A stretch of 28,365 bases of DNA from a virus. Position 1 is the first letter of the stretch. Each line of letters starts with the position of its first letter. The notes under the pieces are model-generated. The model had not been told where the DNA came from. It saw nothing but the letters and a program-made list of their open reading frames with translations, and did no database searches. The translations under genes and the position numbers were made by a program. Location: positions 1-28,365 of IMG/VR virus record IMGVR_UViG_3300045922_000715. The stretch is one strand, 5' to 3'. Below are positions 1,411-25,363 of the stretch, piece by piece.

Positions 1411-1690
1411 CGATCGGTAATCCTTTTTCTATAATTTCACTTAAAGTTAGCCATTCGCCATTAGATAAAAATCTATGGTCTGGCGTAGCCTTTATTATAC
1501 TACCGTCGCTAAGCTCTACTGTCCAGCATTCTTTTTCTCCCTGATATGCACCAAAATCAGGAGTTTCATATTCAACTTGTTCTGTAGTCTCATTAAAACT
1601 AGCCACAATGTATTCCGATGGGTTTTTTGCTATCTCATCTAGCCTTACTAAACCATTTTTTGTCTGAATCATTTGGTCGCCTGCCAAGCA
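1397..1690 (-). mobile_element. N-terminal half of a split DnaE intein (IntN)
   Basis: The 97 residues start at Cys870 of the DnaE-N product (codon 1690-1688), right after the extein sequence SRYSFN. Splicing block A reads CLAGDQMIQTKNGLV; block B reads SIIKATPDHRF with the TxxH signature. The protein stops at 1397 without any endonuclease domain or C-terminal splicing motif. The size is close to the roughly 100-residue IntN of cyanobacterial DnaE, so this is a canonical split position. Confidence 0.92.
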
Positions 1691-4926: not shown

Positions 4927-5146
4927 CGTTGGCACCCATAAGTTTTTTCAAATTATTTACTGCTTCTTCATATATATCATCAACTTCTTGCTCTTCCATC
5001 AGAAGAACTTTGGCCGCATGGGAAGACTCTACTCCCTCGTCATGGCGGTGCATAAACTTATCCAGAGAGTTGTCGTATTTAGGGCTGTATATGAAGTCTG
5101 GATCTGTTAAGATCTTTTCCTTCAATTTTTCCTTGTTGTTGCTCAT
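4919..5146 (-). CDS. small acidic hypothetical protein
   Basis: 75 residues, charged, mostly predicted helical by eye, with an acidic middle (LLMEEQEVDDIYEEA). No family was recognised. It is a real gene by context: a strong AAAGGAAAG site precedes its ATG, its start overlaps the previous stop as TAATG, and its end overlaps the dnaQ start. Lying between a coiled-coil protein and the proofreading exonuclease, it could be a replication accessory protein, but nothing in the sequence proves it. Confidence 0.7.
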   Translation of the reverse strand: MSNNKEKLKEKILTDPDFIYSPKYDNSLDKFMHRHDEGVESSHAAKVLLMEEQEVDDIYEEAVNNLKKLMGANDE

Positions 5147-5535
5147 TACTCTTTCCTTTTAAACGGCAGCACTTTTGGCTCAGACGCCTTCTTAAGAGCA
5201 TCAAGCAACTTGATCTGTTCGGTTAGGTTTTTAGTGAGCTTTTCTATAGAAGGACCTATCGCAAAGATCTGCTTTTCAAGATCTTCAAGCTTTTTCATCG
5301 CAGAGCGGTGTGATTTAAGAACTTTTTTATATTCGCTTACAATAGATATAGTGTTTTTCTTTTTTAAGTATTTCATATTTTGTTCTGCCATTTTCATAAA
5401 ATGAATTAGGTCAGACTTGTTAAGTTCGAGCTTCGCTTTAAACTTTGAAGTTTCTTCTAGGTTTTTACGAAGTTTTTCGATGCTTTTCTCGATGTCGGCA
5501 ATATTGTTTTCCACAAAACACCCTACAGTCTCCAT
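5146..5535 (-). CDS. coiled-coil hypothetical protein
   Basis: 129 residues, Lys- and Glu-rich. Heptad-like spacing of hydrophobic residues runs through most of the length (for example IEKSIEKLRKNLEE and MKKLEDLEKQIF), so a long coiled coil is likely. No catalytic motif was seen. The ATG at 5535 overlaps the end of the upstream phosphoesterase gene by 13 nt behind a GAAGGT site, and the stop overlaps the next ATG, so it is part of the same transcription unit. Function unknown. Confidence 0.7.
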   Translation of the reverse strand: METVGCFVENNIADIEKSIEKLRKNLEETSKFKAKLELNKSDLIHFMKMAEQNMKYLKKKNTISIVSEYKKVLKSHRSAMKKLEDLEKQIFAIGPSIEKLTKNLTEQIKLLDALKKASEPKVLPFKRKE

Positions 5536-7112
5536 TTACCTTCGATCACGTTGATAAGCTGCCTAGTGCCATCAGAATAGACGATAGCTTGAGAGTTGTC
5601 CCAAGAGCTTGCGCCCCTGTTGTACGAGAGTTTTCTGTACGTTGACGTTCCGACAGACCAAGCCTCATGCCACATCTCGCCGTAGTGGCAGTGACCGTAG
5701 ATAACCTTGCCGTATGCTTTGTACATACCTTTTGAGCCAGGATTCCTTTTGCCGTTAGCTCCAAGGTCTCCATGGGCCCCAAGCTCGATACCGGCAACAC
5801 GGAAGTCCTGGTCACGCTCAAGCCATATAATATCTGGGCCGAATTCTACACCCATCATCTCAAGACCTGCCTTAAACGGGTCCTTACCTTCCATGGCAAG
5901 TACTTGTAACTTTGTGGATATTACACGATTTTGATCGTCAAAGTTGCCTTCTGCAAGGTAGCGATCTAGAAACTCATCGTGGTTTGATTTTGCAAAAACA
6001 AGCTTTTTTGCGGTTTTGAGCTTTTGTTTTGCTTTAATGACCTTGGCGTTCTCTTTAAGTTCCTGCTCAAGATTTATTTTGTTTTCGCCTGCAAGACGCG
6101 CACGTAGGACCTTGTTTCGCATCTCATGATGATTGATCGACACGCCACTAAAAAAATCGTGAAAAATTCTAAAGTTTGGCTTTCCAAGCAAGCACATTTC
6201 GTCGACCGCTTTATCAACTAAAGGGTCTGTTTCGGTTACATGGTAATCGCCCTGAACAATTGCTTCGCAGCCTACGAAGGATTTTTTCCCGTTTGGTGTA
6301 TACTTGTAGAATAGGTCGTTAAAAGAACCGTCCTTACACATTTGAACAGGCCTGAAATGGTAAAACTTATCGTCTACGATTTCGACAATTACAGCTCCCA
6401 TCTTATGGTGGGCCTCAGCAAGTCTATCGCGACGTTTTGGAATTTTATCCGAGGGAATGTATTTCGGTCGAGTGATTGCTCCTGTTGATTGTATGATACG
6501 GGCAAGCTTTGTATTCGAGTTTGCCACAGGGATACGTCTTTGCTTAGGGCTTCCGATGATAACAGTACCGTCGGTTTGGCCTAAAGCATCGAGACCAGCA
6601 ACAGGGTCTACTTGCTTGGGGTCGATCTTGATCGGATCGATGTAGATGTTCGAATTGAGCTTTAATGGTCTAAAGACGATATTGACATTTGGATCGCTTA
6701 CAAGATCGGGGTCTATCTCGTAAAGAGCGTAGTTTGCTGGTATCAACAGGAGCATCGCCTTATTTAAGGAGCAGTAGCCCTTTAAAGCGTCTAGGAAGTT
6801 TTCGTGCACCGGAGCACCGGCCACAGCAGTAGTTACTACAAACCTCTTATACTTCTTGACCTGCTCTTTGAGGTCGGAGAAGACCTCGGCAGAGAAGGCT
6901 TCCGGCGAGATGATGTTTTCAAAGCTTTTAGGACTCAAACTCTGAGCATGTTGTTTCAGAGAATCCATGTTACCAAAATGATCTCTGATCATATCTCTGG
7001 AAATTCCTGCCTCTTTTAGAAGGTCAGAGCGTGAAGGATATGCTTTGAGCTTTTTGGCAAGCTTAGCATATGTCAGCGCTATCTGGTCCTTTCGACTCGC
7101 CGTCTTGGACAT
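5523..7112 (-). CDS. calcineurin-like metallophosphoesterase with N-terminal HTH-like segment
   Basis: 529 residues. Residues about 24-55 (YPSRSDLLKEAGISRDMI.HFG) look like a helix-turn-helix DNA-binding unit. The C-terminal half has metallophosphoesterase landmarks in order: QGDYHV (287-292), SNHDEF (376-381, the GNHD-type motif), AHGD (446-449) and GHCHYG (473-478). Such enzymes bind two metals and hydrolyse phosphodiesters, often acting as DNA nucleases. The size and arrangement recall phage T5 A1-type pre-early proteins, but this is a low-confidence comparison from memory. It sits between two helical proteins upstream of the polymerase genes. The ATG follows AGGTG and lies 2 nt after the previous stop. 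A role in DNA degradation or repair is inferred, not shown. Confidence 0.75.
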   Translation of the reverse strand: MSKTASRKDQIALTYAKLAKKLKAYPSRSDLLKEAGISRDMIRDHFGNMDSLKQHAQSLSPKSFENIISPEAFSAEVFSDLKEQVKKYKRFVVTTAVAGAPVHENFLDALKGYCSLNKAMLLLIPANYALYEIDPDLVSDPNVNIVFRPLKLNSNIYIDPIKIDPKQVDPVAGLDALGQTDGTVIIGSPKQRRIPVANSNTKLARIIQSTGAITRPKYIPSDKIPKRRDRLAEAHHKMGAVIVEIVDDKFYHFRPVQMCKDGSFNDLFYKYTPNGKKSFVGCEAIVQGDYHVTETDPLVDKAVDEMCLLGKPNFRIFHDFFSGVSINHHEMRNKVLRARLAGENKINLEQELKENAKVIKAKQKLKTAKKLVFAKSNHDEFLDRYLAEGNFDDQNRVISTKLQVLAMEGKDPFKAGLEMMGVEFGPDIIWLERDQDFRVAGIELGAHGDLGANGKRNPGSKGMYKAYGKVIYGHCHYGEMWHEAWSVGTSTYRKLSYNRGASSWDNSQAIVYSDGTRQLINVIEGKWRL

Positions 7113-7113
7113 G

Positions 7114-7707
7114 CTACACCTGTGCTTGTTCTTGTGCTTGTTCTGCTGTTACTTCCTGTGTGGCTGTTTCTTCTGGGGACTGGTTGGCCACCATCTCAAC
7201 GTCTTTGATTACAACGTTGTAAACCTCTTCAATTTCGATTACGGCTGGATTGTTTTCCACAAACTTAACCGAATCTCCGGCTTTTTTACCCAAAAGCTTT
7301 TCAAGAGATTCTTGATTTAAAATGCTAACCGCGAACTGTAGGCGCGGATTGATGACAGCTCCTGTTTCAGAGTTCATTTCACGAACTACAAGGAAAGACT
7401 TTTTTGAGACTTCTTCGGCTTTTTCTAGAGAGCCAGATTTAACCAGGTCTTCTACTTTCTTTTTCATGTCTTCAATACGTTTTTGTTCGATCACCTGATC
7501 GATGGCCGAATCATTAACCGGTTGGTTTAACGACATCAGTGTAACCATCGCGTTGACTTTCTCATTAAGAAGAGTCAAAGCATCTCGCACCATCGAAAGC
7601 TGCTGAGCTTGGTTGTATAATGTCTGGTCGAGAGCGCCTACAGACTGTTCTAGTCCGAGAAGCCTTTGAGCCGCTGTCATTTGTTTGTTATCGTTTCCTT
7701 TAGACAT
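7114..7707 (-). CDS. helical hypothetical protein with GreA-like C-terminal stretch
   Basis: 197 residues. The first two thirds are helical with coiled-coil character (LDQTLYNQAQQLSMVRDAL and IEDMKKKVEDLVKSG). The stretch LEKLLGKKAGDSVKF followed by a beta-like IEIEEVYNVV resembles the end of GreA/GreB or FKBP-like domains (pattern LlGkkvGD). The tail is Gln/Glu/Ala-rich and probably disordered. The ATG has a GGGAGAA site. It has its own short upstream gap with a promoter-like motif. Function unknown; a transcription-factor-like or structural role is possible but not established. Confidence 0.65.
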   Translation of the reverse strand: MSKGNDNKQMTAAQRLLGLEQSVGALDQTLYNQAQQLSMVRDALTLLNEKVNAMVTLMSLNQPVNDSAIDQVIEQKRIEDMKKKVEDLVKSGSLEKAEEVSKKSFLVVREMNSETGAVINPRLQFAVSILNQESLEKLLGKKAGDSVKFVENNPAVIEIEEVYNVVIKDVEMVANQSPEETATQEVTAEQAQEQAQV

Positions 7708-8668: not shown

Positions 8669-10393
8669 TTATCCCTCACAAGCCTTACATTCCGCCTCAT
8701 CTCTAGAGGCCATGTCTGCCCTAAGCGGTGAAGATGATCTAAAATAGTATAAACTTTTCAAACCTTCTTTCCAAGCTGCAATATGGACGCCGTTTATATA
8801 TTTTGGGTCAGAGTTACTAGCAAAGAAAAGGTTTACAGATTGGCCCTGATCAATCCACTTCTGCCTTTGGGCTGCTTGTTTTACGATAGCGTACTGGTTG
8901 ATCTCTCTAGCTGTAAGAAAAACTTCCTTTTCTTCCGAGCTTAAGAAAGATAAGCTTTGAACGCTTCCTTCATTTTTAACTATAGTTTTCCACGTATCCT
9001 CGTTATCCTTACCTTTTGAAGCAAGTAACTTTTTCAAAGTAGGATTGTACTGAATGAAAACACCCTTTGCGGTCTTTTTTACGTAAGCGTTAGCCGCGAT
9101 CGGTTCGATACCAGGAGACACGTTACCACTAAGTATACTATTTGAGGCAGTAGGTGCTACCGCAACCAGGTGAGAGTTGCGCCTTCCAAAACCTTTCATA
9201 ATTTCTGGTTCGCCAAGCTCTTTAGCTAAGATTTCAGAAGCTTTTATCGTTTCAGTCTGAATTGTACGGAAAACTTCAGCGTTTAGCTGCATTGCTTGAA
9301 AACTATCGAATGCGATCATGTTTTCCTGCAAAAGCGTATGCCAACCAAGGACACCAAGGCCAAGTGCTCGAGACTCTTCAGCAAACCGAACAGCTCTTTC
9401 CATACCAACCAAGCCCTTGGCTTTTACAAGAAACTCTGTCATGACAGCATCTAAAAAAATGGTCATAAAAAAGATAGCGTCAGTGTTTTTAAACTCATTC
9501 CATCGAACCAAGTTCATAGAGCTTAAACAGCAAACAAAGCTTCGGTCTTTGTCGACATGAAGCATAATTTCCGTGCAAAGGTTTGAGTTCTTGGTCGACC
9601 AACCCTTAGCTTTGTACCAAGCTGGGTCTGCTCTCTGAGCCGTATCTCTAAAAAAGAGATAGGGCTCACCAGTTTCAGAGCGTGTTTTGAGCGCATCAAG
9701 CCAAAGCTTTCTTTCGTGCTTGGAACCATCGATAACCTTCTGCATGAAATCGTCTCCGATAGAAAGTCCATGGTGCAGGTTGAGGCACTGTCTGTTAGGG
9801 TCACCCTCGGGTCTTCGGATACGCATAAAATCATGAACATCTTTGTGCTCGATAGGCTCATACCCTGCAAAGGCACCGCGACGAACTCCGCCTTGAGATA
9901 CCGAGGCGATCATAGAGTCAAACATCTTAAGCCATGCGATTGTACCGTTTGAGAATCCGCCTGTCCCTTTCACAGGAGAGCCTGAAGGTCTTACGTCTCC
10001 AAAATAGCCGGAAGTGCCTCCACCATATTTAGACATCATGGCAACCTCTTTCTGAGCGTCCATGATACCTATCAGCGTGTCCTCGACGTATGAACCAAAA
10101 CAAGATATCGGAAGACCTCTTTCTGTCCCCATGTTTGCAAGGACAGGAGTAGAAGGGCATAGCCAGTTTTTCCACATCAGATCAAAGAACTTGTCTTCTA
10201 GGTAGTCTTCTGTGTGAGATTTGTATCCCGAGGAAACCAAGGCCTTAGCCGCAGCTTTTGAAACCCTACGGTAGGCGTCCCTCGGGGTCTCTCCTTCAAG
10301 AAGATATCCGCCTTGTAACGTTTTCAATCCTTCAATAGTAAGCCACTCGGGTGATTCGCCTTTATTTTTCAAGTTTTGTAGTTCTTGACTCAT
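8669..10393 (-). CDS. nrdA: ribonucleoside-diphosphate reductase class Ia large subunit
   Basis: 574 residues; reduces ribonucleotides to deoxyribonucleotides using a radical passed from NrdB. Active-site residues are visible: Cys98 in ISCFGS, Asn271-Leu-Cys273-Thr-Glu275 (the NxCxE radical site), a Cys pair at 288-289 in VCCLSS, the Tyr549-Tyr550 radical relay, and the C-terminal CKAC (569-572) that recycles the disulfide. VAPTASNS is the usual loop. It is short for the family (E. coli NrdA is about 760) because it lacks an N-terminal ATP-cone, so overall activity control by dATP is probably absent. It follows nrdB by 14 nt with an AAGGGAAAG site. No intein, although this gene is a common intein target. 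Confidence 0.95.
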   Translation of the reverse strand: MSQELQNLKNKGESPEWLTIEGLKTLQGGYLLEGETPRDAYRRVSKAAAKALVSSGYKSHTEDYLEDKFFDLMWKNWLCPSTPVLANMGTERGLPISCFGSYVEDTLIGIMDAQKEVAMMSKYGGGTSGYFGDVRPSGSPVKGTGGFSNGTIAWLKMFDSMIASVSQGGVRRGAFAGYEPIEHKDVHDFMRIRRPEGDPNRQCLNLHHGLSIGDDFMQKVIDGSKHERKLWLDALKTRSETGEPYLFFRDTAQRADPAWYKAKGWSTKNSNLCTEIMLHVDKDRSFVCCLSSMNLVRWNEFKNTDAIFFMTIFLDAVMTEFLVKAKGLVGMERAVRFAEESRALGLGVLGWHTLLQENMIAFDSFQAMQLNAEVFRTIQTETIKASEILAKELGEPEIMKGFGRRNSHLVAVAPTASNSILSGNVSPGIEPIAANAYVKKTAKGVFIQYNPTLKKLLASKGKDNEDTWKTIVKNEGSVQSLSFLSSEEKEVFLTAREINQYAIVKQAAQRQKWIDQGQSVNLFFASNSDPKYINGVHIAAWKEGLKSLYYFRSSSPLRADMASRDEAECKACEG

Positions 10394-10407
10394 TTCTTCT
10401 TTCCCTT

Positions 10408-11364
10408 TTAATCAAAAGCTTCATCAAAATTTATAGCTTTGCCATAATCGGTAGGTCTAGTTGAGAAAAAATCAGTATGATAAACACCAGCAACCATCAA
10501 ATCAAACCAACCTGTGATTCTAGAGACAGCCTCTTTATCTATGTTTTTCCAGTTTGATTTAAGGCCCAGATCAATCAGTTTTGTGTTGGCACGGTGCCTT
10601 ATGTAATTCTTTAAATCATGGGAATCTAAACCTTCCATCTCACCTTTAGAGAAAACCCAATTGATAAAGTCATCCTCGATCTGAACTGTAAGCCTAGCGG
10701 CGTCGTAGATGTCTTTTTTCAGCTCGTCAACCCAAAGATCTGGATACTCAGTTATCAGTTGTCTGAAAAGCCAGCATCCTCCTTCGCTGTGGAGCGATTC
10801 GTCTCGTACAGAGAAGGCTACGATCTGACCAAGTCCCTTCATCAGGTTCAAGCGAGAGAAGTTCATAAGGATGGCAAAGCTTGAGAACAAGCTAACACCC
10901 TCGGTAAACCCAGAGAAGATAGCAAGAGATCTTGCGATCGATGGTAGGTCCTTGTCTTCGGTAGCAAGAAGCCTGTCAATCTTGACCTTCGCTGCTGGCT
11001 CCTGCATAAAAGATTCAAAATCTTCTAAACCCATGGACTGATTAAGGTATGCGTACCCAGCAGTATGGATAGCTTCCATACCGGAGAAGGCCGCAGACAT
11101 CATGCCGATCTCTGGGTGAGGGAACCACTGGGCTACCCTTCTCCAGTAATCACCAACCACCGTTTCTGGTTGTACAAATCCTTTTAACGTGTTGCCCAGA
11201 ATCATCTTCTGGGTCTCTGACAGCGTCTGGTTCCAATCGTTTATGTCAGAAGTCATTGATATTTCTGTATGTAACCAAAACGCCTGATTTTGTCTCATAA
11301 AATAATCGTAAGCCTGTGGATATACAAAAGGTGCATACACCAATCTCGTATCACGAAGTTTCAT
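10408..11364 (-). CDS. nrdB: ribonucleoside-diphosphate reductase class Ia small subunit
   Basis: 318 residues; houses the metal centre and tyrosyl radical. Ligand motifs are clear: EAIHTAGY gives Glu97, His100 and radical Tyr104 (His+4, as in E. coli), FTEGVSLF gives Glu155, and RDESLH gives Glu189 and His192. By alignment by eye, the first ligand (Asp84 in E. coli) is Glu67 in FVQPET, a variation also known in Chlamydia-type R2 proteins, but here the radical Tyr is kept. The gene precedes nrdA, the reverse of the E. coli order. The ATG lies directly after the HNH gene behind AAAGGGG. Works with NrdA to feed phage DNA synthesis. Confidence 0.94.
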   Translation of the reverse strand: MKLRDTRLVYAPFVYPQAYDYFMRQNQAFWLHTEISMTSDINDWNQTLSETQKMILGNTLKGFVQPETVVGDYWRRVAQWFPHPEIGMMSAAFSGMEAIHTAGYAYLNQSMGLEDFESFMQEPAAKVKIDRLLATEDKDLPSIARSLAIFSGFTEGVSLFSSFAILMNFSRLNLMKGLGQIVAFSVRDESLHSEGGCWLFRQLITEYPDLWVDELKKDIYDAARLTVQIEDDFINWVFSKGEMEGLDSHDLKNYIRHRANTKLIDLGLKSNWKNIDKEAVSRITGWFDLMVAGVYHTDFFSTRPTDYGKAINFDEAFD

Positions 11365-11365
11365 T

Positions 11366-11956
11366 TTACCCCTTTTTTTGTTTCTTCTTAAGTAGTCGTT
11401 CTAACTTACGAGCTTCCTTAGCTTTTCTTTCGTCTTCCTTCTGTTTAAGGTAAGACTGGTAAGCAGCCTTAGCCTCATCCAGATGGACGTCAATCTTAAA
11501 ATTTTCTTTCCCTATCTTGGCCAAGTAGTCACGGATAAAATTCTCTTCGTTGGTCTTGAGCCTGTGACAGCTTGGCTTTCCATTGTTTAGTTTAAGCGGT
11601 GTTGAACAAATCACTTGAAGGTTTGATTTATCACAGATAACACCTCGAACGATGTCGTCGTATGACATATCAGCCTCAGTCATCCATAGAGGCACGACCG
11701 GATCTATATGGTCAACCTGGACGTGCTTCTGAGGGAAAAGCCCACCACAACAGGCGCAGCGATACCTTACCTGGTTTCTTGCACCAGGCGTTCCGTCTTT
11801 CTTCAAAGCCGGAGGTAGTTCGACACGGGCAGCTTGAAGGACTTCCTTCATCTGTGGAGAAAGCCTAAAGACGCGACGAATCGCTCCCTTTACTCGGGCT
11901 CTCTCCTCTACCCATCGACCGTTTGCGTCATAGGGCGACTTTTCTTTTTTGGACAT
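11366..11956 (-). CDS. HNH endonuclease
   Basis: 196 residues. The core has CACCGG (CxxC zinc knuckle), then VQVDHIDPV (the DH of HNH), SNLQVIC, and a C...CHRLKT end, a classical zinc-stapled HNH nuclease. The C terminus is a charged Lys/Glu/Arg helix. The ATG at 11956 was preferred because it falls just after the preceding stop; an in-frame TTG at 11998 would extend it by 14 residues, but neither has a strong Shine-Dalgarno. It sits immediately upstream of nrdB, a site where phages often carry homing nucleases, so it may be selfish; a packaging or host-DNA role is also possible. Confidence 0.85.
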   Translation of the reverse strand: MSKKEKSPYDANGRWVEERARVKGAIRRVFRLSPQMKEVLQAARVELPPALKKDGTPGARNQVRYRCACCGGLFPQKHVQVDHIDPVVPLWMTEADMSYDDIVRGVICDKSNLQVICSTPLKLNNGKPSCHRLKTNEENFIRDYLAKIGKENFKIDVHLDEAKAAYQSYLKQKEDERKAKEARKLERLLKKKQKKG

Positions 11957-11957
11957 T

Positions 11958-12260
11958 TTACTTGATCGAACCTGAAGTGTTGCCACCTTTTTCGCCAAGG
12001 AGCATGATTAAATACTTTGTTTTTTGCTCATTGATCTTAAGGTTTTCACGATGAGGCGCACTAAGCTCTTTTACAAGCTCTTTTGCCTTATTTAGTTCTT
12101 CGTCTTTTTCACGAAATTCTTTAAGCTCTTCACGATACTTGGCGTATCGCAAAATCATCTTATCGAGTTCGTCGATAGAGAGACCTTGTACTGTAGAAAC
12201 CCAATCTTGGTGTTGTTCTTCGACTGTTTCACGAAGACTTTTTTTCTTACCTTTGGCCAT
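11958..12260 (-). CDS. small coiled-coil hypothetical protein
   Basis: 100 residues, highly charged. The middle (about 30-70: LRYAKYREELKEFREKDEEL and onwards) has strong helical and coiled-coil character, with a basic N-terminal head AKGKKKSLRE. No family recognised. Good AAGGGAGA site before the ATG, and its start overlaps the preceding gene. Its placement among recombination and nucleotide genes says little about function. Confidence 0.7.
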   Translation of the reverse strand: MAKGKKKSLRETVEEQHQDWVSTVQGLSIDELDKMILRYAKYREELKEFREKDEELNKAKELVKELSAPHRENLKINEQKTKYLIMLLGEKGGNTSGSIK

Positions 12261-12619: not shown

Positions 12620-14677
12620 TCACCCAGATACATTATCACATATCCGGCTCTCTTGACCATCTCTAATCACACGAATAGTGTGGTGGACCATCTCTTTTGT
12701 TTCGTTGGAGTGGTCGACTACGATGATCTTTTTACCGGTAACATGAGTTTGTAATATTTGCAAACACTCTTCGCGACAAATAGAGTCTAAACCGTCAAAC
12801 GGCTCATCAAGAACAAAGATATCTAGGCCTTTGCCGGCCTGCTCTTCGATCATATCGATAACAGCAAGATCAACAGCAAGGTCGATAGAGGTTCTTTCTC
12901 CACCGCTCATGCTTTTTACTGGGATATTGACCTCTCCATCCATAGTAAGGATAGCTGTAACCTCGTCCTTGATCGTGCCAGACTTTGTTTCTTTAAAACC
13001 TTCAAAGTATATCGAGGCGGTAGCCATATTTGGAATCCTGGACAAGATCTGCGTGGCTTTGACTGCAATATTATCAAGAGCATCTTGAAACAAATTGTTC
13101 ATGTAACTCCTGATAATTTTTACAGCTTCTGTCGATATCGCTCTCATCTCAACTGCTTTTTTGTTTTTCTCTGTAAGTTCAAGAAGTTGACGCTCCTGTG
13201 TTTCGACGGCCTGATTTAGAGACTGTCTATTTTTTGTAAATAATTCTAAATTCTTCTGGAAGTTTTCGTATTCAGAACTTTTCTGAAAATAAAGACGTCG
13301 ATGCTCGTCTCTGTTGTACGAGAGATTTGTAATTATTTCATTAAATTTAGATCTGATAGCAGACTCTTGCTCTCTGACAAGTTCCAGAGACCTGAGATAA
13401 GCCTGATTTAAAAGCTGTTGTTCTTTTTCAAGTTTTTCGTTTTCAGTCTTAAGCTCTATCTCCGCAGCCTGAATAAGGGGCGCAAACTTATTTGTAGACG
13501 TCTCAGCTCGTGCGGCCTCAACCTCTTTCTTCTTATCTTCAATTTGATTTAAAAGGCCAGGAATTTCTTGCTCTAAAGTTTGGGCTTGTTGGATCTCAAT
13601 AGTCTTCTTTTTTGCCTCAGCAACAAGCGTATCAATCTCGTCGTGCCCTTGATGCCATGTTTGTTTACATGTAGGGCAGATACCATTTTTAATAGATAGG
13701 ATCTTTGATTTAAGATCTTCAAGCTTCAAAGAAGCAAGTTTGCCATTGTCAATAGCTCTTTTGTATTCAGAAACCTTAGACTCAAGAGCAGAAAGCTCTC
13801 GCATTTTTAGATTCCAGTTATCCATCGCGATTTTTCGCTCAGCATTTTCCTGAGCCTTAAGGTGGGCCACTTTGTCAGATAAGGGTTTGAGCGAAGCTTT
13901 TGAGACACCAGGAGGAGGCTGAGGCTTTTCTATGGAGGATAGGGCCTGTTCAAGCTTAAGAGATTCGTCCTTAAGTAGGTTTTCCGATCTTTCTAAGTTA
14001 TTTTTAAGAGTAGGTAGTATCGAAGGTTCCCAATCAAGAGAAGGTTGCTGTAGCATCGACAGGCTGGCCCTGGAGGCTTCTAAAGCGGATCGTACAGCGT
14101 CAAGAGCCGATTGCGTATTCTGAGCTTCCTGGTCAAACTTCTTAGCATCTTGTTCCGCTGCCAAAAGCCTTTGGGTCCAGGTTTTAAGATCTAAAACCTC
14201 AGCAAGGAAAGCGTGGCACTCTTTAGGAGTTAAACTTAAAAAGAAACCGCCTTCTTTCTGTCGTTTGTGGATCATCTTTCTCAGAAGTTCTCTAGGAATG
14301 CCTAAAATCTCATCGAGTTTTTCTTCTGCAGCCTTATTGCTTCCACTTACAATTTCTACACCATCAAGAACGATAGATAATCCTTCTGATTTTGATCTTT
14401 TTATGGTAAGGTTTTTTCCTTTGTAATCAAAATCTCCCTGTACGGCCATAGAGTTTTTTGTTAGACGAGACTGGAGAACCGTAGAGGGTAGCGCGTTAGT
14501 GCCAAGCAAATACTCCAAAGAGTTAAAAATTGTACTTTTTCCAGAACCTGAGGAACCGTTAGTATTTTTGTTTAAACCATCGACCTGGATAAGGTTAGGT
14601 CGGCCCTCAAAATTAATGTCATGCGAGCCTACGAAACGGCCCACGTTTGAGATGATTAGCTTTTTTAGTTTGAGCAC
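12620..14677 (-). CDS. Rad50/SbcC-like ATPase (T4 gp46-like recombination nuclease subunit)
   Basis: 685 residues from the GTG start. ABC-type SMC-like ATPase: Walker A GSSGSGKST near residues 41-49, two long coiled-coil arms, a zinc hook CPTC (334-337), the signature SMSGGERT near 590, and Walker B FVLDEPFDGLD near 620-631 with a following VDHS switch. It works with the Mre11-like protein at 16946-17902 to process DNA ends in recombination-dependent replication. The GTG at 14677 is chosen since GGGGAG lies 6 nt upstream and the protein then begins VLKLKKLIISN, as Rad50 proteins do; an ATG 48 nt upstream inside the previous gene is less likely. The usual close pairing with the nuclease gene is broken here by four genes. 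Confidence 0.93.
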   Translation of the reverse strand: MLKLKKLIISNVGRFVGSHDINFEGRPNLIQVDGLNKNTNGSSGSGKSTIFNSLEYLLGTNALPSTVLQSRLTKNSMAVQGDFDYKGKNLTIKRSKSEGLSIVLDGVEIVSGSNKAAEEKLDEILGIPRELLRKMIHKRQKEGGFFLSLTPKECHAFLAEVLDLKTWTQRLLAAEQDAKKFDQEAQNTQSALDAVRSALEASRASLSMLQQPSLDWEPSILPTLKNNLERSENLLKDESLKLEQALSSIEKPQPPPGVSKASLKPLSDKVAHLKAQENAERKIAMDNWNLKMRELSALESKVSEYKRAIDNGKLASLKLEDLKSKILSIKNGICPTCKQTWHQGHDEIDTLVAEAKKKTIEIQQAQTLEQEIPGLLNQIEDKKKEVEAARAETSTNKFAPLIQAAEIELKTENEKLEKEQQLLNQAYLRSLELVREQESAIRSKFNEIITNLSYNRDEHRRLYFQKSSEYENFQKNLELFTKNRQSLNQAVETQERQLLELTEKNKKAVEMRAISTEAVKIIRSYMNNLFQDALDNIAVKATQILSRIPNMATASIYFEGFKETKSGTIKDEVTAILTMDGEVNIPVKSMSGGERTSIDLAVDLAVIDMIEEQAGKGLDIFVLDEPFDGLDSICREECLQILQTHVTGKKIIVVDHSNETKEMVHHTIRVIRDGQESRICDNVSG
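12626..12647 (-). promoter_or_regulatory. candidate internal promoter with ATGTGATA motif
   Basis: The minus strand holds the core ATGTGATA at 12634-12641, followed by ATGTATC, 22-29 nt before the ATG at 12612. It lies inside the last codons of the Rad50-like gene. A weaker relative (GTGTGATATC, around 12320-12330) lies about 65 nt before the ATG at 12260. Shared with the sites near 7744 and 8651. Confidence 0.35.
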
Positions 14678-14678
14678 A

Positions 14679-14933
14679 TCAGTCTCCCCTATTAGGCGGT
14701 TTAATCCGATCTTCTTGAAGCTCAACTATGTTGGAGTTGACCTCAACAGCTCGGGCTTGACCGTTATCTATCGTTATTTTAGACGAAGATGTAGGGGCTG
14801 ACAAGAGTCTTTTTGATTCTTTTCCACATTTTTTACAAGGAGCAGATTCCTTGACATCCTTTCCCGACTTATAAAAAATCGGGAAGGGTGTGTTGCATTC
14901 TTTATCTAAACACCGATATTTAACCAGAGGCAT
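14679..14933 (-). CDS. small zinc-ribbon protein (FmdB-like)
   Basis: 84 residues from the ATG at 14933, which overlaps the protease stop as TAATG. It starts MPLVKYRCLDKEC and has a second CKKC pair about 25 residues later, a CxxxxC/CxxC zinc ribbon like FmdB-family regulatory proteins. The rest is a short disordered tail. It may bind nucleic acid or a protein partner. Placed between the protease and the Rad50-like ATPase and translationally linked to both. Confidence 0.7.
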   Translation of the reverse strand: MPLVKYRCLDKECNTPFPIFYKSGKDVKESAPCKKCGKESKRLLSAPTSSSKITIDNGQARAVEVNSNIVELQEDRIKPPNRGD

Positions 14934-15934
14934 TACTGTTCTGCGCCCTCTACCACTGTACGGCAAAATTCAATAATCTCGACATCATTAGTAAGGTTTT
15001 GTGTGCATTTTTTCAAAAATAAGCTTCTTGCATCTTTTACGCTCATTTCTTCTTCGTCCAAACTTTCAGTTTCATCTTGCATCCAAGGACGATCTTTAAT
15101 GCCTGAAGAGATCATTTTGGTAGCTTTTTCTATAAAGTTTTTTACAGCTTCAAAAGGAACAATGTAAGCATAACTTAAACCTCGAGCATTTCCAGCAAAA
15201 ACAAGACCTGATAAATCTCCATCTTTATTGAGCACAGCACTTCCAGAGGAGCCTCCCATGATCGTAGCCGACACTACTTGTGACTCATAGTTTCTGACAA
15301 TAGGTGCAACGCCAAAAAATCTACAAAAAGGCCCAAGCTTTGGATTGTTTAATTCCGAGTCTTTGCATTTTCGAACACCAACAACTATTGATATGATTTG
15401 CCGCCCACCAAAATGACCTTTTGTAATGATATTAGGCATAAGAGCAGGGTGGCCTGTAATTGTAGCCTCAGAATAAATTTCAGGGGCCTTGCTTGCTAAT
15501 TCGATGCTATTTTCTAAATCGGCAGCAACCGTTAAAACGCAAAGATCGTGTTCAATATCTGTGAGAAAACCAGTGACAATATGCTCTTTACCGTTTACCA
15601 GTCTTATTTTTCCGCCCTTTTTAAGGGCGCCGTCACAAACGTGTTTGTTAGAAAGAATAACAGACTCGCTTGCAGTGTTACTTACGATGACACCAGAACC
15701 TCCACCTGTTCCTGCCATGTTTGTGACCATTACAGTGTAGCTAGAAGGGTGAGAGTTTTTTCCAAGGTAGTACATATATCCAGCTAAAGCAATTGGCGCT
15801 ACGGCCAAAAGCACAGCTAGGCTGGTCCCTACTGTTGAGGGAAGGCGTTTGAACAAGAGTTCTTCGGCTTTCCGGTAAATTGATTGTACCGCTTTCTTTG
15901 CCTTATTAAGGCGACTTTTAAGGCGGAGATTCAT
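14933..15934 (-). CDS. membrane-anchored trypsin-like serine protease
   Basis: 333 residues. A basic N terminus (1-30) is followed by one hydrophobic segment (about 33-57), then a chymotrypsin/trypsin-fold domain. The catalytic triad is visible: His98 in SNKHVCDG, Asp130 in IEHDLCVL, and Ser230 in GGSSGSAV; the GTGGGSGVIV start of the fold also fits HtrA-like proteases. A C-terminal acidic tail with three Cys follows. The positive N terminus before the membrane segment suggests N-in topology, with the protease domain outside the cytoplasm. The ATG follows a perfect AGGAGG. Presence in a phage replication/recombination block is unusual; possible roles are host protein cleavage, envelope remodelling or head protein maturation, none demonstrated. 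Confidence 0.85.
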   Translation of the reverse strand: MNLRLKSRLNKAKKAVQSIYRKAEELLFKRLPSTVGTSLAVLLAVAPIALAGYMYYLGKNSHPSSYTVMVTNMAGTGGGSGVIVSNTASESVILSNKHVCDGALKKGGKIRLVNGKEHIVTGFLTDIEHDLCVLTVAADLENSIELASKAPEIYSEATITGHPALMPNIITKGHFGGRQIISIVVGVRKCKDSELNNPKLGPFCRFFGVAPIVRNYESQVVSATIMGGSSGSAVLNKDGDLSGLVFAGNARGLSYAYIVPFEAVKNFIEKATKMISSGIKDRPWMQDETESLDEEEMSVKDARSLFLKKCTQNLTNDVEIIEFCRTVVEGAEQ

Positions 15935-15961
15935 TTTTCCTCCTAGATGCCCTTTTGGGGG

Positions 15962-16618
15962 TTATTTGTTTTCTCTCTCTTCTCTAAGCTTAGCCAGCAT
16001 TTTGAGGACATCCCCAAGTTTTGACTTGTCATCCGACAGAGAGGATAACGGAGACACTTCTACTGTATTATCATCGATTTTCTTTAGAATCCCACCATTT
16101 GGCAAATTTAATCCCATTTGTGGTGTTTTCCCGTTTCCGGAATCTGGATTTTTAATTTTTTGTAACATTTCCATACACTTCATGTACATTTTAAAGTTTT
16201 CAAAATCGGCACTTTCTATAATTCTAGGGTCTTTAGTAACAGCATAACGATCTAAGATATCCCTGTAATAATTTTCCAAAGTCGACATGGCGTCAACAAG
16301 AAGGCTCACACTTCGGTTCTGGGTTATTTCTACCTTTTCGGCTAGGTTTCTTGCCATGTTCTCGTAATGCTCAATTTTACCTTGGTAAAAATTATTCTTA
16401 TAAGATATATAAAGTACGATATTTTTCTTAACTCCCAGCTTGAGAGCTATGTCATGATAAGTTTGGCCGTTGTAATACATTTCGATCATACGAGAGATCT
16501 TCTCGCTTGGCACGTTAAAAATCCCAGGCAGTCCGTCTTCGATAAACTGCTCAAGAGATTTTATCTCTTTATCCGTCATGTCTATAGGGTATTCACCCTT
16601 TGGAACTATGTTTGACAT
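15962..16618 (-). CDS. hypothetical protein with helix-turn-helix segment
   Basis: 218 residues from the ATG at 16618 (a GTG 21 nt upstream is an alternative). Residues about 42-70 (MYYNGQTYHDIALKLGVKKN) fit a helix-turn-helix of the kind seen in phage small terminases and regulators. A helical middle follows (MSTLENYYRDILDRY) and the C terminus is charged. Overlaps the preceding gene by 26 nt. It may be a DNA-binding regulator or small terminase, but it lies far from terL and on the other strand, so terminase is doubtful. Confidence 0.65.
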   Translation of the reverse strand: MSNIVPKGEYPIDMTDKEIKSLEQFIEDGLPGIFNVPSEKISRMIEMYYNGQTYHDIALKLGVKKNIVLYISYKNNFYQGKIEHYENMARNLAEKVEITQNRSVSLLVDAMSTLENYYRDILDRYAVTKDPRIIESADFENFKMYMKCMEMLQKIKNPDSGNGKTPQMGLNLPNGGILKKIDDNTVEVSPLSSLSDDKSKLGDVLKMLAKLREERENK

Positions 16619-16958
16619 CTTTAAAGTTATTCCCGTCACTGTCGACTACAATCACCTCAACCTCAGGCCATAGTATGGTATGGACAGTTCCTATGAGAGC
16701 TTGAAGTCTTTTTTCATGATATTGATCAGGTTTGTATTTTTCTTTGAAGCTTAAAGTAAACTTGACCATAGATCCAAGACCTGGCACTGAAGCTTCCGGC
16801 GTGGTTACGAGATTGTAAGAAACAGAAACTTCGGCAATATCATCAAAGAAAATAAAAGGGGCTGTTTGAAGCGTTTTTACGTGCATCTCGCTAAGTCGAC
16901 CACTTAAAATAGCACCTGTCTTTAAATCTTTAAGTATGTTAGGATCTACCTGGCGCAT
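16593..16958 (-). CDS. hypothetical protein
   Basis: 121 residues, mixed alpha/beta by appearance, with a beta-rich middle (FIFFDDIAEVSVSYNLV; SMVKFTLSFKEKY) and a strand VEVIVVDSDG near the end. No family recognised. A strong GGAGG lies 5 nt before the ATG, which overlaps the end of the Mre11-like gene. Probably a small accessory protein translated together with the nuclease. Confidence 0.65.
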   Translation of the reverse strand: MRQVDPNILKDLKTGAILSGRLSEMHVKTLQTAPFIFFDDIAEVSVSYNLVTTPEASVPGLGSMVKFTLSFKEKYKPDQYHEKRLQALIGTVHTILWPEVEVIVVDSDGNNFKDVKHSSKG

Positions 16959-17902
16959 AATTCCTCCAGATAAGACTTTACACCTTTTTTGTCAGTTATA
17001 CCAGGATAATTTTCTAGGTACTCAAATATGGTTTTAAATGATTTGGCCTGCATCTTTCGCTCAGAACTGTCGGTAGGCCTTGCTACAACCTTACATTTAC
17101 CTTTGAGTTTTTTGCTTGTCTGTGCTATCCATGTCGAAGGCCCCTCGAGTTCTACGAATGTTTTGGGCCCAAGATTCAGAGAAGCAAGGTCTGTATCGGG
17201 AGTAACCTTGTAAGTTCTAATTGGCTCCAAAACTAAAGAAGTATCAACGAAGCTCCACTGGCCGTCGAAAGTCCAGATGCCTTTGATCTCATTCGCATCG
17301 GAAAGACTGTCCCACTTCGGTGTTCCTGGGTAAAATACCCGTCCTACTGTCTGAGACTTGTGTATATGTCCTGAGATTATATGTGTAAAGTTTAGACGAT
17401 TTTGATCAACGCCGTGTGGTGCGTAGAATCCGTTCTCAAATTCAGAGCCGTCAAAAGTTTGATGGCAGAAGAGTTTTTTTGCACCAAGTTCAGCGAGCTT
17501 ATTTGCCTCTTCAACAAACTTTTCATTATCTGAAAAATAGGGCATAAATCCACAGTTGCCATATTTTTGGGGCTTGTCGATTATCATGATATTGTCAATG
17601 CCCATTTTAAGGGTATCAAGAGCAGACATCTGACCCTCTCTTTGTTTATCCCCAATCTGGTCATGATTACCAACCAAAAGAATGACTTTATCAAACAGGG
17701 TCGACATCTTTGCAATGGTTTTTTGCCAAAAACTTACAACCTCAAGCCTAAGAACCGCATGCGTATGAAACAGGTCGCCACCAACAACAAGAGCGGTGGC
17801 TTGAAATGTTTCCTGGGTCTTTTCGACCAAGGAAAAAATCTTCTCAAGATCTGAGAGATTGTTTGGCTGTGCGTGTGGGTCACCGATAAAAATCGTCTTC
17901 AT
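16946..17902 (-). CDS. Mre11/SbcD-like nuclease (T4 gp47-like recombination nuclease subunit)
   Basis: 318 residues with all metallophosphoesterase motifs: GDPHAQ (7-12), GGDLFHTH (41-48), GNHDQ (78-82), CHQTF (146-150) and SGHIHKSQ (177-184). These ligate two Mn ions for 3'-5' exonuclease and endonuclease action at DNA ends. The C-terminal part matches the length of a DNA-binding cap domain. The partner is the Rad50-like ATPase at 12620-14677. The ATG at 17902 overlaps the preceding stop as TAATG after an AGAAGGAAG site. Assignment of the pair to recombination-dependent replication and repair follows the T4 gp46/47 model. Confidence 0.93.
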   Translation of the reverse strand: MKTIFIGDPHAQPNNLSDLEKIFSLVEKTQETFQATALVVGGDLFHTHAVLRLEVVSFWQKTIAKMSTLFDKVILLVGNHDQIGDKQREGQMSALDTLKMGIDNIMIIDKPQKYGNCGFMPYFSDNEKFVEEANKLAELGAKKLFCHQTFDGSEFENGFYAPHGVDQNRLNFTHIISGHIHKSQTVGRVFYPGTPKWDSLSDANEIKGIWTFDGQWSFVDTSLVLEPIRTYKVTPDTDLASLNLGPKTFVELEGPSTWIAQTSKKLKGKCKVVARPTDSSERKMQAKSFKTIFEYLENYPGITDKKGVKSYLEELCAR

Positions 17903-18204: not shown

Positions 18205-19250
18205 AACTTAACTCCTTTTAGTCTTAAAACTTTCTGTTGCAATATAGGAAGCTTTCTCGCAGCGTCAATCATCTTCGACATCAAATCTTGTTTGAGAAGA
18301 ATATCTTCAGGTGTATCGGAGCCATCTGAGGTCCCTTCAAGGTTAGAATATATGGCATCATCATTATCCGATGAAGATATGGACGCGTCAATAGATAAAA
18401 CACTTGCGGCGTTTAAAAGACTAGAAAGCTGATCGGGAGTAACTTTTTGTTTTGGGACCCTTATTCCGTTCTTTTCATCTTCGATGTAGCTTTTATTTAT
18501 AGCCTCTGCAAGTTGATTAAGATCTTGGATATCATGTTTAAACCGCAAAGAATTTGCACGGTACAGTATAGAGCTATCGGAAGGGTAAAAATGGATTGTT
18601 GTTTCGGAGTAACTATCGATCATGTTTCCGGTCATGCGGCCAATACAGACACCATTGAACACTTTAGAATATTCACCTACCCATTTATCTACACCGGAAA
18701 CCAGGCCCATAGAAGCAATCCCGATCATGTCCATTAGGGTTAGGTGGTTTCTTGGAACCTTCCGGTAAAAAAGTTTTGCCCTATTAATCGCTAACGGCAT
18801 GTTGTTTTCTATAAGCTTTCTTCGGGCTTCAACAAACTGATTGTAGATTTTTTCAGACTTTTCTGGAAAAGGACCTTTCCAATTGTCTCGTATGAATTTT
18901 ATAAGGTTGTAGTTAATGTGGAAGCTTTGAAGCTCTTTAATGTCACCATTCTTAATGGCAGGCGTGATTCGGCTACTGAAAACTTTTGACTTTTCTCTAA
19001 AATAAGGACGTGCGCTTAGAATTTGTCTGTTGGTGACAGCTACCAAAAGTATAAACTGCTTGTAGATCTCGCGAGACTGAGCAAATACGATGATACTCTT
19101 CCTAAAACGCTCTTCGAGCTTCATGACGAGTTCAACCTGAGCTTTTTGATCGGAGCCGTCCTTATTAAAATTAAGGATAGCCGTAAGCTCTTCGGCAAGC
19201 TGCCTCAAACTGTTGTCATATTCTTGGTTATTCGTCGCCTTTTTCTTCAT
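18201..19250 (-). CDS. divergent sigma-70-like factor with truncated region 4
   Basis: 349 residues. Region 2 is visible at about 145-217: NNMPLAINRAKLFYRKV, then LTLMDMIGIASMGLVSGVDKW and a basic GRMTGNMIDSYSET stretch, as in the core-binding and -10 recognition helices. A region-3-like part follows, then an acidic Ser/Asp-rich insert (about 290-325). The protein stops at LPILQQKVLRLKGVKL, the beginning of region 4.1, so the -35-binding helix-turn-helix is missing. T4 gp55 is a known late sigma factor lacking region 4. The ATG at 19250 overlaps the helicase gene; a TTG one codon earlier is possible. Likely directs host RNA polymerase to phage promoters without a -35 element. Confidence 0.78.
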   Translation of the reverse strand: MKKKATNNQEYDNSLRQLAEELTAILNFNKDGSDQKAQVELVMKLEERFRKSIIVFAQSREIYKQFILLVAVTNRQILSARPYFREKSKVFSSRITPAIKNGDIKELQSFHINYNLIKFIRDNWKGPFPEKSEKIYNQFVEARRKLIENNMPLAINRAKLFYRKVPRNHLTLMDMIGIASMGLVSGVDKWVGEYSKVFNGVCIGRMTGNMIDSYSETTIHFYPSDSSILYRANSLRFKHDIQDLNQLAEAINKSYIEDEKNGIRVPKQKVTPDQLSSLLNAASVLSIDASISSSDNDDAIYSNLEGTSDGSDTPEDILLKQDLMSKMIDAARKLPILQQKVLRLKGVKL

Positions 19251-20889
19251 CAACTTCCTTAGTTGGATCTTGTCCTCCTATCCATTCTATCACCGTTCCG
19301 GAAGACCTGTAAAATTCAACCCTTGTTTTGAGGTGTCTAACCATAGACTCAATACCCTTTACGTGAAAGTCATAAATTATAGACTTCTTTTTAGGTGGAT
19401 GAAGGTCTGCAAACTTGCTGATCTCAAGCCTTCTAACGCTTCGTCCAACAGCTCCCTGTTTTGTCCTGATCTCGCTCGTCCCACCTTGCCAGTTTATGGT
19501 GTGGTGTGTCGGGTAAATATTGGTACCAGTAGATATGCACGATGTCCCGATTAAAACCTTAACTTCTCCCCTGTTAAATTTTTCGACAGCATCCATAGGG
19601 TCACTGTTCTTAATTTGGTCATACATCCTTTTCTGCTCATCGCTCATCGAATTTATGAGCTTTTCAAGGATGTCGGGCTTGTTCTTCATGGCTTTTTTTA
19701 TCTTAGTCTTGTCAACACCTAAGATAACTGAGACGATCGTTAGTTTATCATCGGCACTTGTTGCTAATGCGTATGGAACTTTCAAAAACGGTGCCAACAT
19801 AAGTATTTGAGATAACTCATCTATCAAGACAAGGGTTGATTCGTTTCGAGATTCGGCCACGGCATTAGCAAGCTTGGCCGTAAAAGCTGCGATGTTTATG
19901 TTGTTTAAAAAATGTACACGTTTCATCTCCAAAGCATCTTGACTGTAAAATGTAGGGTTTGATGTTTCAACCGGTAAAATCTTAAAAGAATGGTCGCAGA
20001 TATATCCACCTTTAATAGCGTCTTCAGTGCTTAATTTGTAGACAGTCTTTCCTATGATGGCCTTTAAAAGCTTTTCGGTTCCATCTCCTCGAGTCTGGGT
20101 ACCGGACAGAAAAAATCGATATGGTATGTCCCTTAAAACTCCATGACATACGCTTTCTAAAGTTTCGGCAGGTATGGTATGGGATTCGTCGGCAAGCAAG
20201 ACCTGGGCTTGTGAGATTTCTTCGTATTCCTTGGTTCCTGGTTCAAGATTTGTTAAAGAATCAGAAATACATATCATGAAATTTTTACCAAATTTTTTCT
20301 TACCATCACCAACCATGCCTATCGCAGATGGTCCAAGGTAGTGTTGAAATCTTTCCACCATCTCCGTAAATATGGAAGCAGAAGGCACCATAATTACGGT
20401 TTTAAGGCCAAGTTTTTGAGCAATCATCAATATGATAAGAGATTTTCCAGCACCCGTACAAAGCTCGACGTTTCCGTGTTTTATATTTATAAGTTCTTCG
20501 ATAGAGGCAGACTGGTAGTTGTGAGGGGTCATATCCATACGGCGATACCACGGGTAAGGCCTAGGCCTTGGATAGTTTATATTGTTTGTAATTTCTACAT
20601 CAAGCTTATCTTGAAGATAAGGTAGATATCCTGGGCGGATACAAGCCTGCCCATCTTCTTGGAACATTACAGACTTTTCTATCTTAGATTTTAGCATTTC
20701 TCCGTGAGCTTTCCATCCTTCAGGGTCATATGAGGGCCAGCGCCTATTTTTCATATGACGCTTATACTGAAATTCTATAGACTTATTTCTATACTTTGTA
20801 AAAGTTTCAAGCTTGCTAATTTCCTCGTCCGAAGCAGAAGATAAGTCTAATATTGCTTTTGAACCAGATACAATTGTTGCCTTGATCAC
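19228..20889 (-). CDS. superfamily 2 DNA helicase, UvsW-like
   Basis: 553 residues. Helicase motifs: PHNYQSASIEELI (Q-like region, about 122-134), LCTGAGKS (motif I, 143-150), VIMVPS (Ia), LLADESHT (II), FLSGTQTRGD (III), VLIGTSCISTGTNI (V) and QGAVGRSVRR (VI). This is the layout of T4 UvsW, which remodels recombination and replication forks; it fits with the Rad50/Mre11-like pair downstream. An N-terminal extension of about 110 residues precedes the core. The GTG start is supported by GGAGG 4 nt upstream; the ATG two bases earlier leads straight into a stop. First gene of the leftward block. Confidence 0.9.
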   Translation of the reverse strand: MIKATIVSGSKAILDLSSASDEEISKLETFTKYRNKSIEFQYKRHMKNRRWPSYDPEGWKAHGEMLKSKIEKSVMFQEDGQACIRPGYLPYLQDKLDVEITNNINYPRPRPYPWYRRMDMTPHNYQSASIEELINIKHGNVELCTGAGKSLIILMIAQKLGLKTVIMVPSASIFTEMVERFQHYLGPSAIGMVGDGKKKFGKNFMICISDSLTNLEPGTKEYEEISQAQVLLADESHTIPAETLESVCHGVLRDIPYRFFLSGTQTRGDGTEKLLKAIIGKTVYKLSTEDAIKGGYICDHSFKILPVETSNPTFYSQDALEMKRVHFLNNINIAAFTAKLANAVAESRNESTLVLIDELSQILMLAPFLKVPYALATSADDKLTIVSVILGVDKTKIKKAMKNKPDILEKLINSMSDEQKRMYDQIKNSDPMDAVEKFNRGEVKVLIGTSCISTGTNIYPTHHTINWQGGTSEIRTKQGAVGRSVRRLEISKFADLHPPKKKSIIYDFHVKGIESMVRHLKTRVEFYRSSGTVIEWIGGQDPTKEVDEEKGDE

Positions 20890-24646: not shown

Positions 24647-25363
24647 ATGGGTGGATTAATTTATAAAATAACCAATAAAATCAACGGTAAAAGCTATGTA
24701 GGGCTCACAACCCAAAAGCTTTCAGTTCGTTTTTATAAACATTTAAGTTCCAGTAACTGTACGGCCATATCTGCAGCTATTCAAAAGTATGGAAAAAACA
24801 ACTTTGAAGTTGTTGCTATAGACTCTTCCGATTCTTTGGAAGAGCTGAAAAAGAAAGAATCTTTTTACATACAGACCCTCGGTACCCTTTCTCCGCACGG
24901 ATACAATCTGACTTCCGGTGGAGAAGCGCCATCTCCTTCGTTGGAAACAAGAGAGAAACTATCTCAGGCATTTAAGGGCAAGAAGCGATCGAAAGATGCC
25001 AGAAAAAGAATAGCAGAGGGCAAAAAAGGCAAGAAGACAGGGCCCTGCTCTGAAGGAAGAAAGAAAGCAATTTCTGAGGCCCTAAGAGGTAGAAAGCTTT
25101 CAATAGAACATCGTCAGGCACTTTCTATGGCAAAAAAAGGCAGAAAGCTGCCAGCTTTAGCTATCAAAAATAGAATAGCAAACATATCTAGACAAATACT
25201 CTGTCATCAAAACGGAAAGATCTATGATAGTATAATTAAGGCTGCTAGAATTTTAAATCTAGACCCTTCTAGTATTACTAGAAATTGCAAAGGAAAACAA
25301 TCGATAGTAAAAGGATACTCTTTTGAGTATGTGAAAAAGGAAACTACGAATGAGCAAAGCTAA
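24647..25363 (+). CDS. GIY-YIG endonuclease with NUMOD-type DNA-binding repeats (homing endonuclease)
   Basis: 238 residues. The catalytic domain is at the very N terminus: GLIYKITN and SYVGLT form the GIY-YIG pair, with Arg28, Glu71 and GYNLTSGGE (85-93). Basic repeats of the NUMOD3 type follow (KLSQAFKGKKRSKDARKRI, AISEALRGRKLS, ALSMAKKGRKL), then a NUMOD1-like segment with YDSIIKAARILNLDPSSI. This is the modular make-up of free-standing phage homing enzymes such as the SegA group. It sits between terL and the next gene, with a weak start site and a 14-nt overlap at its 3' end. Its likely target is the intron-less or element-less version of this locus. Confidence 0.9.
   Translation: MGGLIYKITNKINGKSYVGLTTQKLSVRFYKHLSSSNCTAISAAIQKYGKNNFEVVAIDSSDSLEELKKKESFYIQTLGTLSPHGYNLTSGGEAPSPSLETREKLSQAFKGKKRSKDARKRIAEGKKGKKTGPCSEGRKKAISEALRGRKLSIEHRQALSMAKKGRKLPALAIKNRIANISRQILCHQNGKIYDSIIKAARILNLDPSSITRNCKGKQSIVKGYSFEYVKKETTNEQS

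Follow-up and report, generated by a model that had tools for sequence, protein, structure and literature searches.

HtrA and DegS proteases carry, by definition, at least one PDZ domain behind the protease domain, and MarP is an anchored extracytoplasmic serine protease with several membrane helices. Known phage proteases mostly act in the cytoplasm on capsid proteins. The DNA analyzed here (the window) is a virus record of 28,365 bases that encodes, at 14933..15934 on the minus strand, a 333-residue trypsin-fold serine protease with a predicted export signal, P0001. Judging by titles and abstract openings, we found no paper that deals with such an exported phage protease, and a search of 50,697 records of named phages at E 0.01 returned no relatives of P0001.

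The original prediction, made from the letters alone, had placed a membrane-anchored trypsin-like protease at these coordinates, and the ORF is indeed there. The triad that it named, His98-Asp130-Ser230, lies at exactly the claimed positions (codons 15641..15643, 15545..15547 and 15245..15247, minus strand, the serine within GGSSGSA), and each residue is invariant in 12 of 12 aligned trypsin sequences, a set that represents 11 phages with the window and a near copy differing by one residue (L013) both counted. Residues 79-244 match the Pfam family Trypsin_2 (PF13365) with E 9.6e-12 and a score of 46.3 bits where 27.6 are required, so the triad is not a chance arrangement. A second family of the trypsin fold, Peptidase_S46, scores above its threshold too, over the short stretch of residues 221-257 (24.8 versus 22 bits). 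The single membrane segment behind a basic N terminus was likewise recovered: the best 19-residue hydropathy window reaches 1.94 at residue 39, the net charge over residues 1-32 (predicted inside) is +8, and the structural model has a helix at residues 33-59 (15758..15838, minus strand). The protease domain follows at residues about 60-277 (15104..15757, minus strand). An RBS-like AGGAGG (15939..15944, minus strand) stands 4 bases ahead of the ATG, and the stop codon overlaps the ATG of the adjoining zinc-ribbon gene (TAATG), both as read in the sequence; we therefore take the protease gene to be an operon member. Cys100, Cys132, Cys190 and Cys204 are also invariant in 12 of 12 aligned trypsins, a pattern that would fit an exported protein with disulfides. 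Compared with the related contig L002, the pN/pS of the protease gene was 0.233 overall (domain 0.144, anchor 0.254, tail 0.664) and that of four other genes of the region 0.08 to 0.18; against L003 it was 0.289, above three of the four other genes and below the TerS-like gene (0.414), with synonymous sites near saturation in these comparisons. These ratios indicate a gene under purifying selection that is changing faster than most of the neighbors measured.

The fold was modeled with AlphaFold on 12 sequences (mean pLDDT 81.5), replacing an earlier 5-sequence model (pLDDT 65.5) for which Foldseek had listed Mycobacterium tuberculosis Rv3671c and DegS at the top. When the Foldseek list for the new model was realigned with VIA-align 2, all 994 of the 994 aligned chains gave a Z of 8 or more, and DegS protease domains ranked first (3lh3_H, Z 22.2, rmsd 2.7 with 176 residues aligned, P0001 range 60-274). 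A phmmer search of solved structures gave weak matches only, with HtrA proteins first (best E 0.016). The model thus suggests that P0001 has a protease domain of the HtrA/DegS type, and "trypsin-like" is the right term for its fold; the specificity pocket has no Asp at the presumed Arg/Lys-specificity position of trypsin, and in the alignment its residues look HtrA-like. P0001 is nevertheless not an HtrA protein by definition, because a Pfam search at E up to 1 listed no PDZ domain (the chain continues for only about 56 residues beyond the protease domain) and the NCBIfam cut-offs for Do and DegS are missed by far (30 versus 416 bits and 18.2 versus 423 bits). PADLOC matched P0001 to LmuA and RT-Protease_XI, which we take to reflect the shared trypsin domain, and we did not file P0001 as a defense gene.

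Export signals recur throughout the relatives and differ in kind, as judged by hydropathy and motif. Among the trypsins, the window protein, L130, L131, L132, L136 and L139 start with a membrane helix, four of 11 loci carry a lipobox (LSAC in L133 and L134, LTAC in L135, LASC in L137), and L138 and L052 have signal-peptide-like N termini. The ClpP-like proteins that take the same place in other relatives (see below) mostly have signal-peptide-like starts, with a lipobox in one slot protein (L033/L163); L092 also has a lipobox. As a control, the first 70 residues of proteins from ten families of the same loci were scored, counting a 13-residue hydropathy mean of 2.1 or more. All 12 trypsin rows and 69/73 ClpP-like rows had such a stretch, compared with one among 570 distinct proteins from the eight flanking families; the four ClpP-like rows below the threshold are two signal-less paralogues, one ORF cut by a contig end and one protein at 1.56. 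We regard this as good evidence, in the form of a prediction, that both protease kinds leave the cytoplasm, and export of the trypsin-fold protease itself as highly probable. Burial of the hydrophobic segment in a soluble fold, which would have spoken against the original prediction, is disfavored because relatives keep an export signal while exchanging membrane helix, lipobox and signal peptide. The window protease may have a cleavable signal peptide in place of an anchor, since A-L-A occurs just before residue 52, but in the alignment L003 has no such motif there. An anchored HtrA is reported to be released by self-cleavage (PMC5359297), and release of this kind is a possibility for the window protein too.

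Of the named phages, Myxococcus phage Mx1, a 169,621-bp contractile-tailed phage (PMC10720576), is nearest to the window in terminase large subunit and chaperonin (36% and 41% identity), and we assign the window to an Mx1-like family. The chaperonin is phage GroEL-like (20945-22714, plus strand; phrog_5725, E 6e-79) and conserved in Mx1. Several other features of the window were seen by eye. Its DNA polymerase III alpha gene (3-389, 334-1410 and 1397-4297, minus strand) seems to be broken in two by a split intein, and an endonuclease-like ORF stands free between the two parts; a GIY-YIG-like homing endonuclease ORF (24647-25363, plus strand) lies behind the terminase gene; and the portal gene (26292-28365, plus strand; phrog_15361, E 3e-14) seems to enter an intein-like stretch at the window end. 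L002 has a small intein-like insert in its terminase large subunit (690-3209, minus strand) that is absent from the window copy, and an IscB-like ORF of 379 aa (18446-19585, plus strand) near the counterpart of window 4919-5535 (both by eye).

The genes around the protease, all on its strand where coordinates are given, bear out the recombination gene block of the original prediction: a helicase that we call UvsW-like (PHROGs, "DNA helicase"), a sigma-factor-like gene, an SbcD-like gene (16946..17902; phrog_100, E 1.2e-31) and an SbcC-like gene with a GTG start as in relatives (12620..14677; phrog_77, E 2.7e-51). The slot holding the protease is bordered on the left by a gene (15962..16639) without a family match of weight, which we name TerS-like by synteny, its positional counterpart in Mx1 directly preceding the terminase large subunit, and on the right by the zinc-ribbon gene (14679..14933; PF09723, E 1.7e-5, below cut-off). 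Gene order is common to the window and Mx1 in two pieces, helicase/sigma-like/SbcD/TerS-like and zinc-ribbon position/SbcC-like. In Mx1 the first piece, from helicase to TerS-like gene, runs directly into the terminase; in the window's group the protease stands at the junction of the two. No match to Trypsin_2 was found in Mx1.

To survey the slot blind to the protease, we searched IMG/VR with an SbcD alignment and kept 80 of 86 relatives, giving 79 loci. Thirty of these were counted as family members with an interval from TerS-like gene to zinc-ribbon gene (or SbcC); the other 49 comprise 12 with Mx1-like order and no slot, 18 that end before the slot or have no recognized border, and 19 with distant SbcD. 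Of 21 loci scored "none", 19 (within L069-L091) were left out of the 30 as distant SbcD matches with no family sign seen. The slot holds a trypsin in five family loci, L013 among them, and an exported ClpP-like protein in 23; it is empty in L068, where a 4-base gap takes the place of the gene, and rearranged in L067, where genes for a ClpP-like and a membrane-anchored trypsin-like protein lie close by. One region of L067, a distant relative, contains subtilase-like, signal-less ClpP-like and membrane-anchored trypsin-like ORFs (6704-7339, 9871-10635 and 10759-12054, plus strand), the first recognized by eye and having no Pfam match. With the slot empty in L068 and Mx1 lacking Trypsin_2, the slot function is dispensable.

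The ClpP-like identity is supported by CLP_protease matches in five exported slot proteins scanned (E 1e-13 to 2e-16). In 20 aligned slot proteins two cysteines and the triad Ser and His are invariant, and the acidic member of the triad varies between Glu and Asp, triad positions being those that we presume from ClpP in general. The ClpP-like slot protein of L041 matched 242 phage records, none over 80% of the query, and the trypsin of L136 matched one unannotated fragment among named phages. No trypsin relatives were found in GTDB genomes. ClpP-like relatives occurred there at 5 loci, three in one Deltaproteobacteria MAG and single loci in MAGs of Saprospiraceae and Phycisphaerae, which is at best a weak hint of the host.

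When five trypsins served as queries, 11 loci came up, six with the gene in the slot. Among 48 survey records, 7 contain Trypsin_2 (6 over cut-off). Of 80 loci with an exported ClpP-like protein, the records of 76 were searched for Trypsin_2 (26 by contig name and 50 further, all but L210, L212, L214 and L216), and none has a match; CLP_protease was absent from the slot-trypsin records searched (all but G001), namely G002, G003, G022, G040 and G053. Both exported kinds together thus occur in no record searched, a weak absence as many records are fragments; G022 spans 175,837 bases. Records with the trypsin elsewhere often do carry CLP_protease (G038, G042, G043, G045 and G050, and one of five other such records, G055, with two matches). 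Their seven ClpP proteins have no export-like start, with hydropathy maxima of 0.16 to 1.65 in the six scored and the remaining one, a 421-residue HNH-like fusion, judged by eye. At L221 1468-2733 (minus strand), an ORF of 421 aa joins an HNH-like portion, recognized by eye, to a ClpP-like one. In a quickly computed SbcC tree of 49 rows, which leaves out the window's own SbcC (the contig copy is cut), the five trypsin rows form two groups that stand apart from each other, with good support, among the ClpP-like rows. Its "none" rows are L067 and, probably only through a 700-base limit, L041 and L170, the L041 slot holding a ClpP-like gene. The tree implies two changes, both forced by starred branches, with two long branches flagged, and so needs two separate placements of the trypsin.

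A second context for the same pair of proteases is provided by other phages. In L132, L138 and L139 the trypsin gene comes directly behind a small ORF for a membrane protein and ahead of further small ORFs for membrane or exported proteins (membrane and export judged by eye), and the ClpP-like genes of L190 and L196 sit in a cassette whose neighbors are homologous to those of L132, L139 and, in part, L138 (phmmer against the 16,827 ORFs of the study's loci). The upstream membrane ORF links L132 with L196 (1e-11), L190 with L196 (2e-7) and L139 with L196 (3e-5), with no match for L138 in that search. The exported ORF links L132 with L196 (7e-12), L138 with L196 (2e-11), L190 with L132 (5e-4) and L139 with L196 at only 0.007, and an HNH ORF links L139 with L196 (5e-30) and has members in L202, L205 and L217, each with a ClpP-like gene nearby. 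Because homologous neighbors surround trypsin and ClpP-like genes alike, the same exchange appears to have taken place in this second context. In L191, L201, L208, L211 and L215 an exported ClpP-like gene is followed shortly downstream by an XkdF-like (head protease-like, by eye) ORF.

Some of the neighbors suggest envelope breakdown. A GH24 lysozyme (PF00959) lies about 0.5 kb from the trypsin in L136 (E 2e-50) and about 1.3 kb in L135 (E 2e-41), and a lipoprotein-like ORF and an M15 peptidase (E 5e-8) lie behind the ClpP-like gene of L219. Rz-like-spanin matches on neighbors in L190 and L138 were weak (E 0.006 and 0.033), and the other small cassette neighbors gave no family match of weight. 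The second-lineage cassettes and the GH24 and M15 neighbors make us lean toward envelope breakdown, short of proof; as only 2 of the 24 records searched contain GH24, each time close to the trypsin, the link to lysis stands on few loci. The window itself has no such lysis cassette, and its slot neighbors are replication and recombination genes.

Taken together, these data lead us to a tentative reading, held at a little under an even chance as a whole, of an anchored, exported serine protease that cuts host-envelope proteins, is replaced in its slot by a ClpP-like protease in most surveyed relatives and supports envelope breakdown, lysis or release. The N-terminal signal anchor would insert the protease into the host cytoplasmic membrane with the protease domain predicted to face the outer (periplasmic) side, and the anchored enzyme would then cut host-envelope proteins during infection, where we infer activity, substrates and timing alike. 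An unrelated exported ClpP-like protease would do the same job from the same operon slot in most surveyed relatives, and breakdown or loosening of the envelope would, as the leading guess, support lysis or release. Since one slot is filled by either of two unrelated exported proteases, the selected trait would be serine proteolysis outside the cytoplasm and not one fold. Envelope proteolysis by the slot protease is the likely part of this reading; lysis or envelope breakdown as its purpose is a guess that we would sooner doubt than assert. The reading must accommodate a window slot that lies in a replication/recombination operon and not beside lysis genes, the scarcity of GH24 and the weak spanin-like matches, the empty slot of L068 and the lack of Trypsin_2 in Mx1, and the PHROGs matches of ClpP-like slot proteins described below. 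Stated more broadly, we marginally favor the view that at least two large-phage lineages replace trypsin by ClpP folds, or the reverse, at one exported-protease site, with periplasmic proteolysis selected independently of fold and probably dismantling the envelope. A slot in which the fold changes but an exported serine protease is retained points to a periplasmic step of infection, and suggests that proteolysis in the host envelope matters to phages of this family. The original prediction of an anchored HtrA/trypsin-like protease acting at or outside the inner membrane is upheld, at the level of prediction, by the export signals in relatives. Of the roles that it named as possible, superinfection exclusion, receptor change and lysis, the gene neighborhoods in other phages lean toward lysis or envelope breakdown.

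The best of the alternatives is superinfection exclusion or receptor inactivation, in which the exported protease would remove a surface or periplasmic protein needed by a second phage. A product with an anchor, lipobox or signal peptide, a non-structural operon location and an exchangeable slot would all suit such a role, but two unrelated folds would need the same target, and the gene lies near lysis genes in some other phages; we consider it unlikely. Counter-defense or host takeover comes next and is also unlikely. Here the target would be an envelope sensor of the host or an anti-phage effector anchored in the membrane, perhaps with DegS-like release of a sigma factor, a role consistent with DegS as best structural match, with the sigma-factor-like gene in the same block and with a jumbo-phage review that describes patchily distributed peptidases, ClpP among them, which may target the host (PMC7824862); that no PDZ domain was found argues against it. 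Periplasmic quality control, the removal of misfolded exported phage or host proteins, would fit an HtrA-type protease domain and is improbable, for here too no PDZ domain was found, and with no ATPase partner a ClpP-like protease would seem an unlikely stand-in. The annotated prohead protease of Mx1 has no Pfam match, and its N terminus matches the head-maturation family phrog_1028 (E 2.1e-6). A head-maturation protease with a hydrophobic propeptide has as its main support that all three ClpP-like slot proteins scanned against PHROGs hit families of head-maturation proteases (best E 7e-18), but this role is highly improbable for the window protease given the lipoboxes and signal peptides of relatives, a slot in a recombination operon and not beside capsid genes as placed in Mx1, and a separate homologue of the Mx1 prohead protease in 16 of the 18 records searched from the family or its relatives (including the slot-trypsin records G003, G022 and G040), which also goes against the virion-maturation enzyme that the original prediction had named as its refutation.

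The reading of P0001 as an anchored envelope protease can be set beside known systems. Near the top of the matches from a viral structure library (BFVD) stand two phage proteins named as a periplasmic serine protease (Podoviridae sp. ct9P15) and an HtrA protease (Rhizobium phage AF3); these phage HtrA-like proteins match P0001 in structure (E 4e-10 to 7e-10) and share 16-17% identity with it. MarP (Rv3671c) of M. tuberculosis was the top Foldseek match of the first model and is the top NCBIfam match, yet under its cut-off (36.1 versus 250 bits), and its several membrane helices are absent from P0001. ClpP (S14) and the phage ClpP-like proteins are represented by the slot alternative with its CLP_protease domain, but the slot proteins carry an export-like signal peptide or lipobox, and their fold is unrelated to trypsin. 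DegS, a periplasmic, N-terminally anchored member of the HtrA family, has in common with P0001 one N-terminal membrane helix and the fold of the protease domain, whereas no PDZ domain was found in P0001, the two are about 24% identical where their structures align, and P0001 has conserved cysteines and is encoded by a phage.
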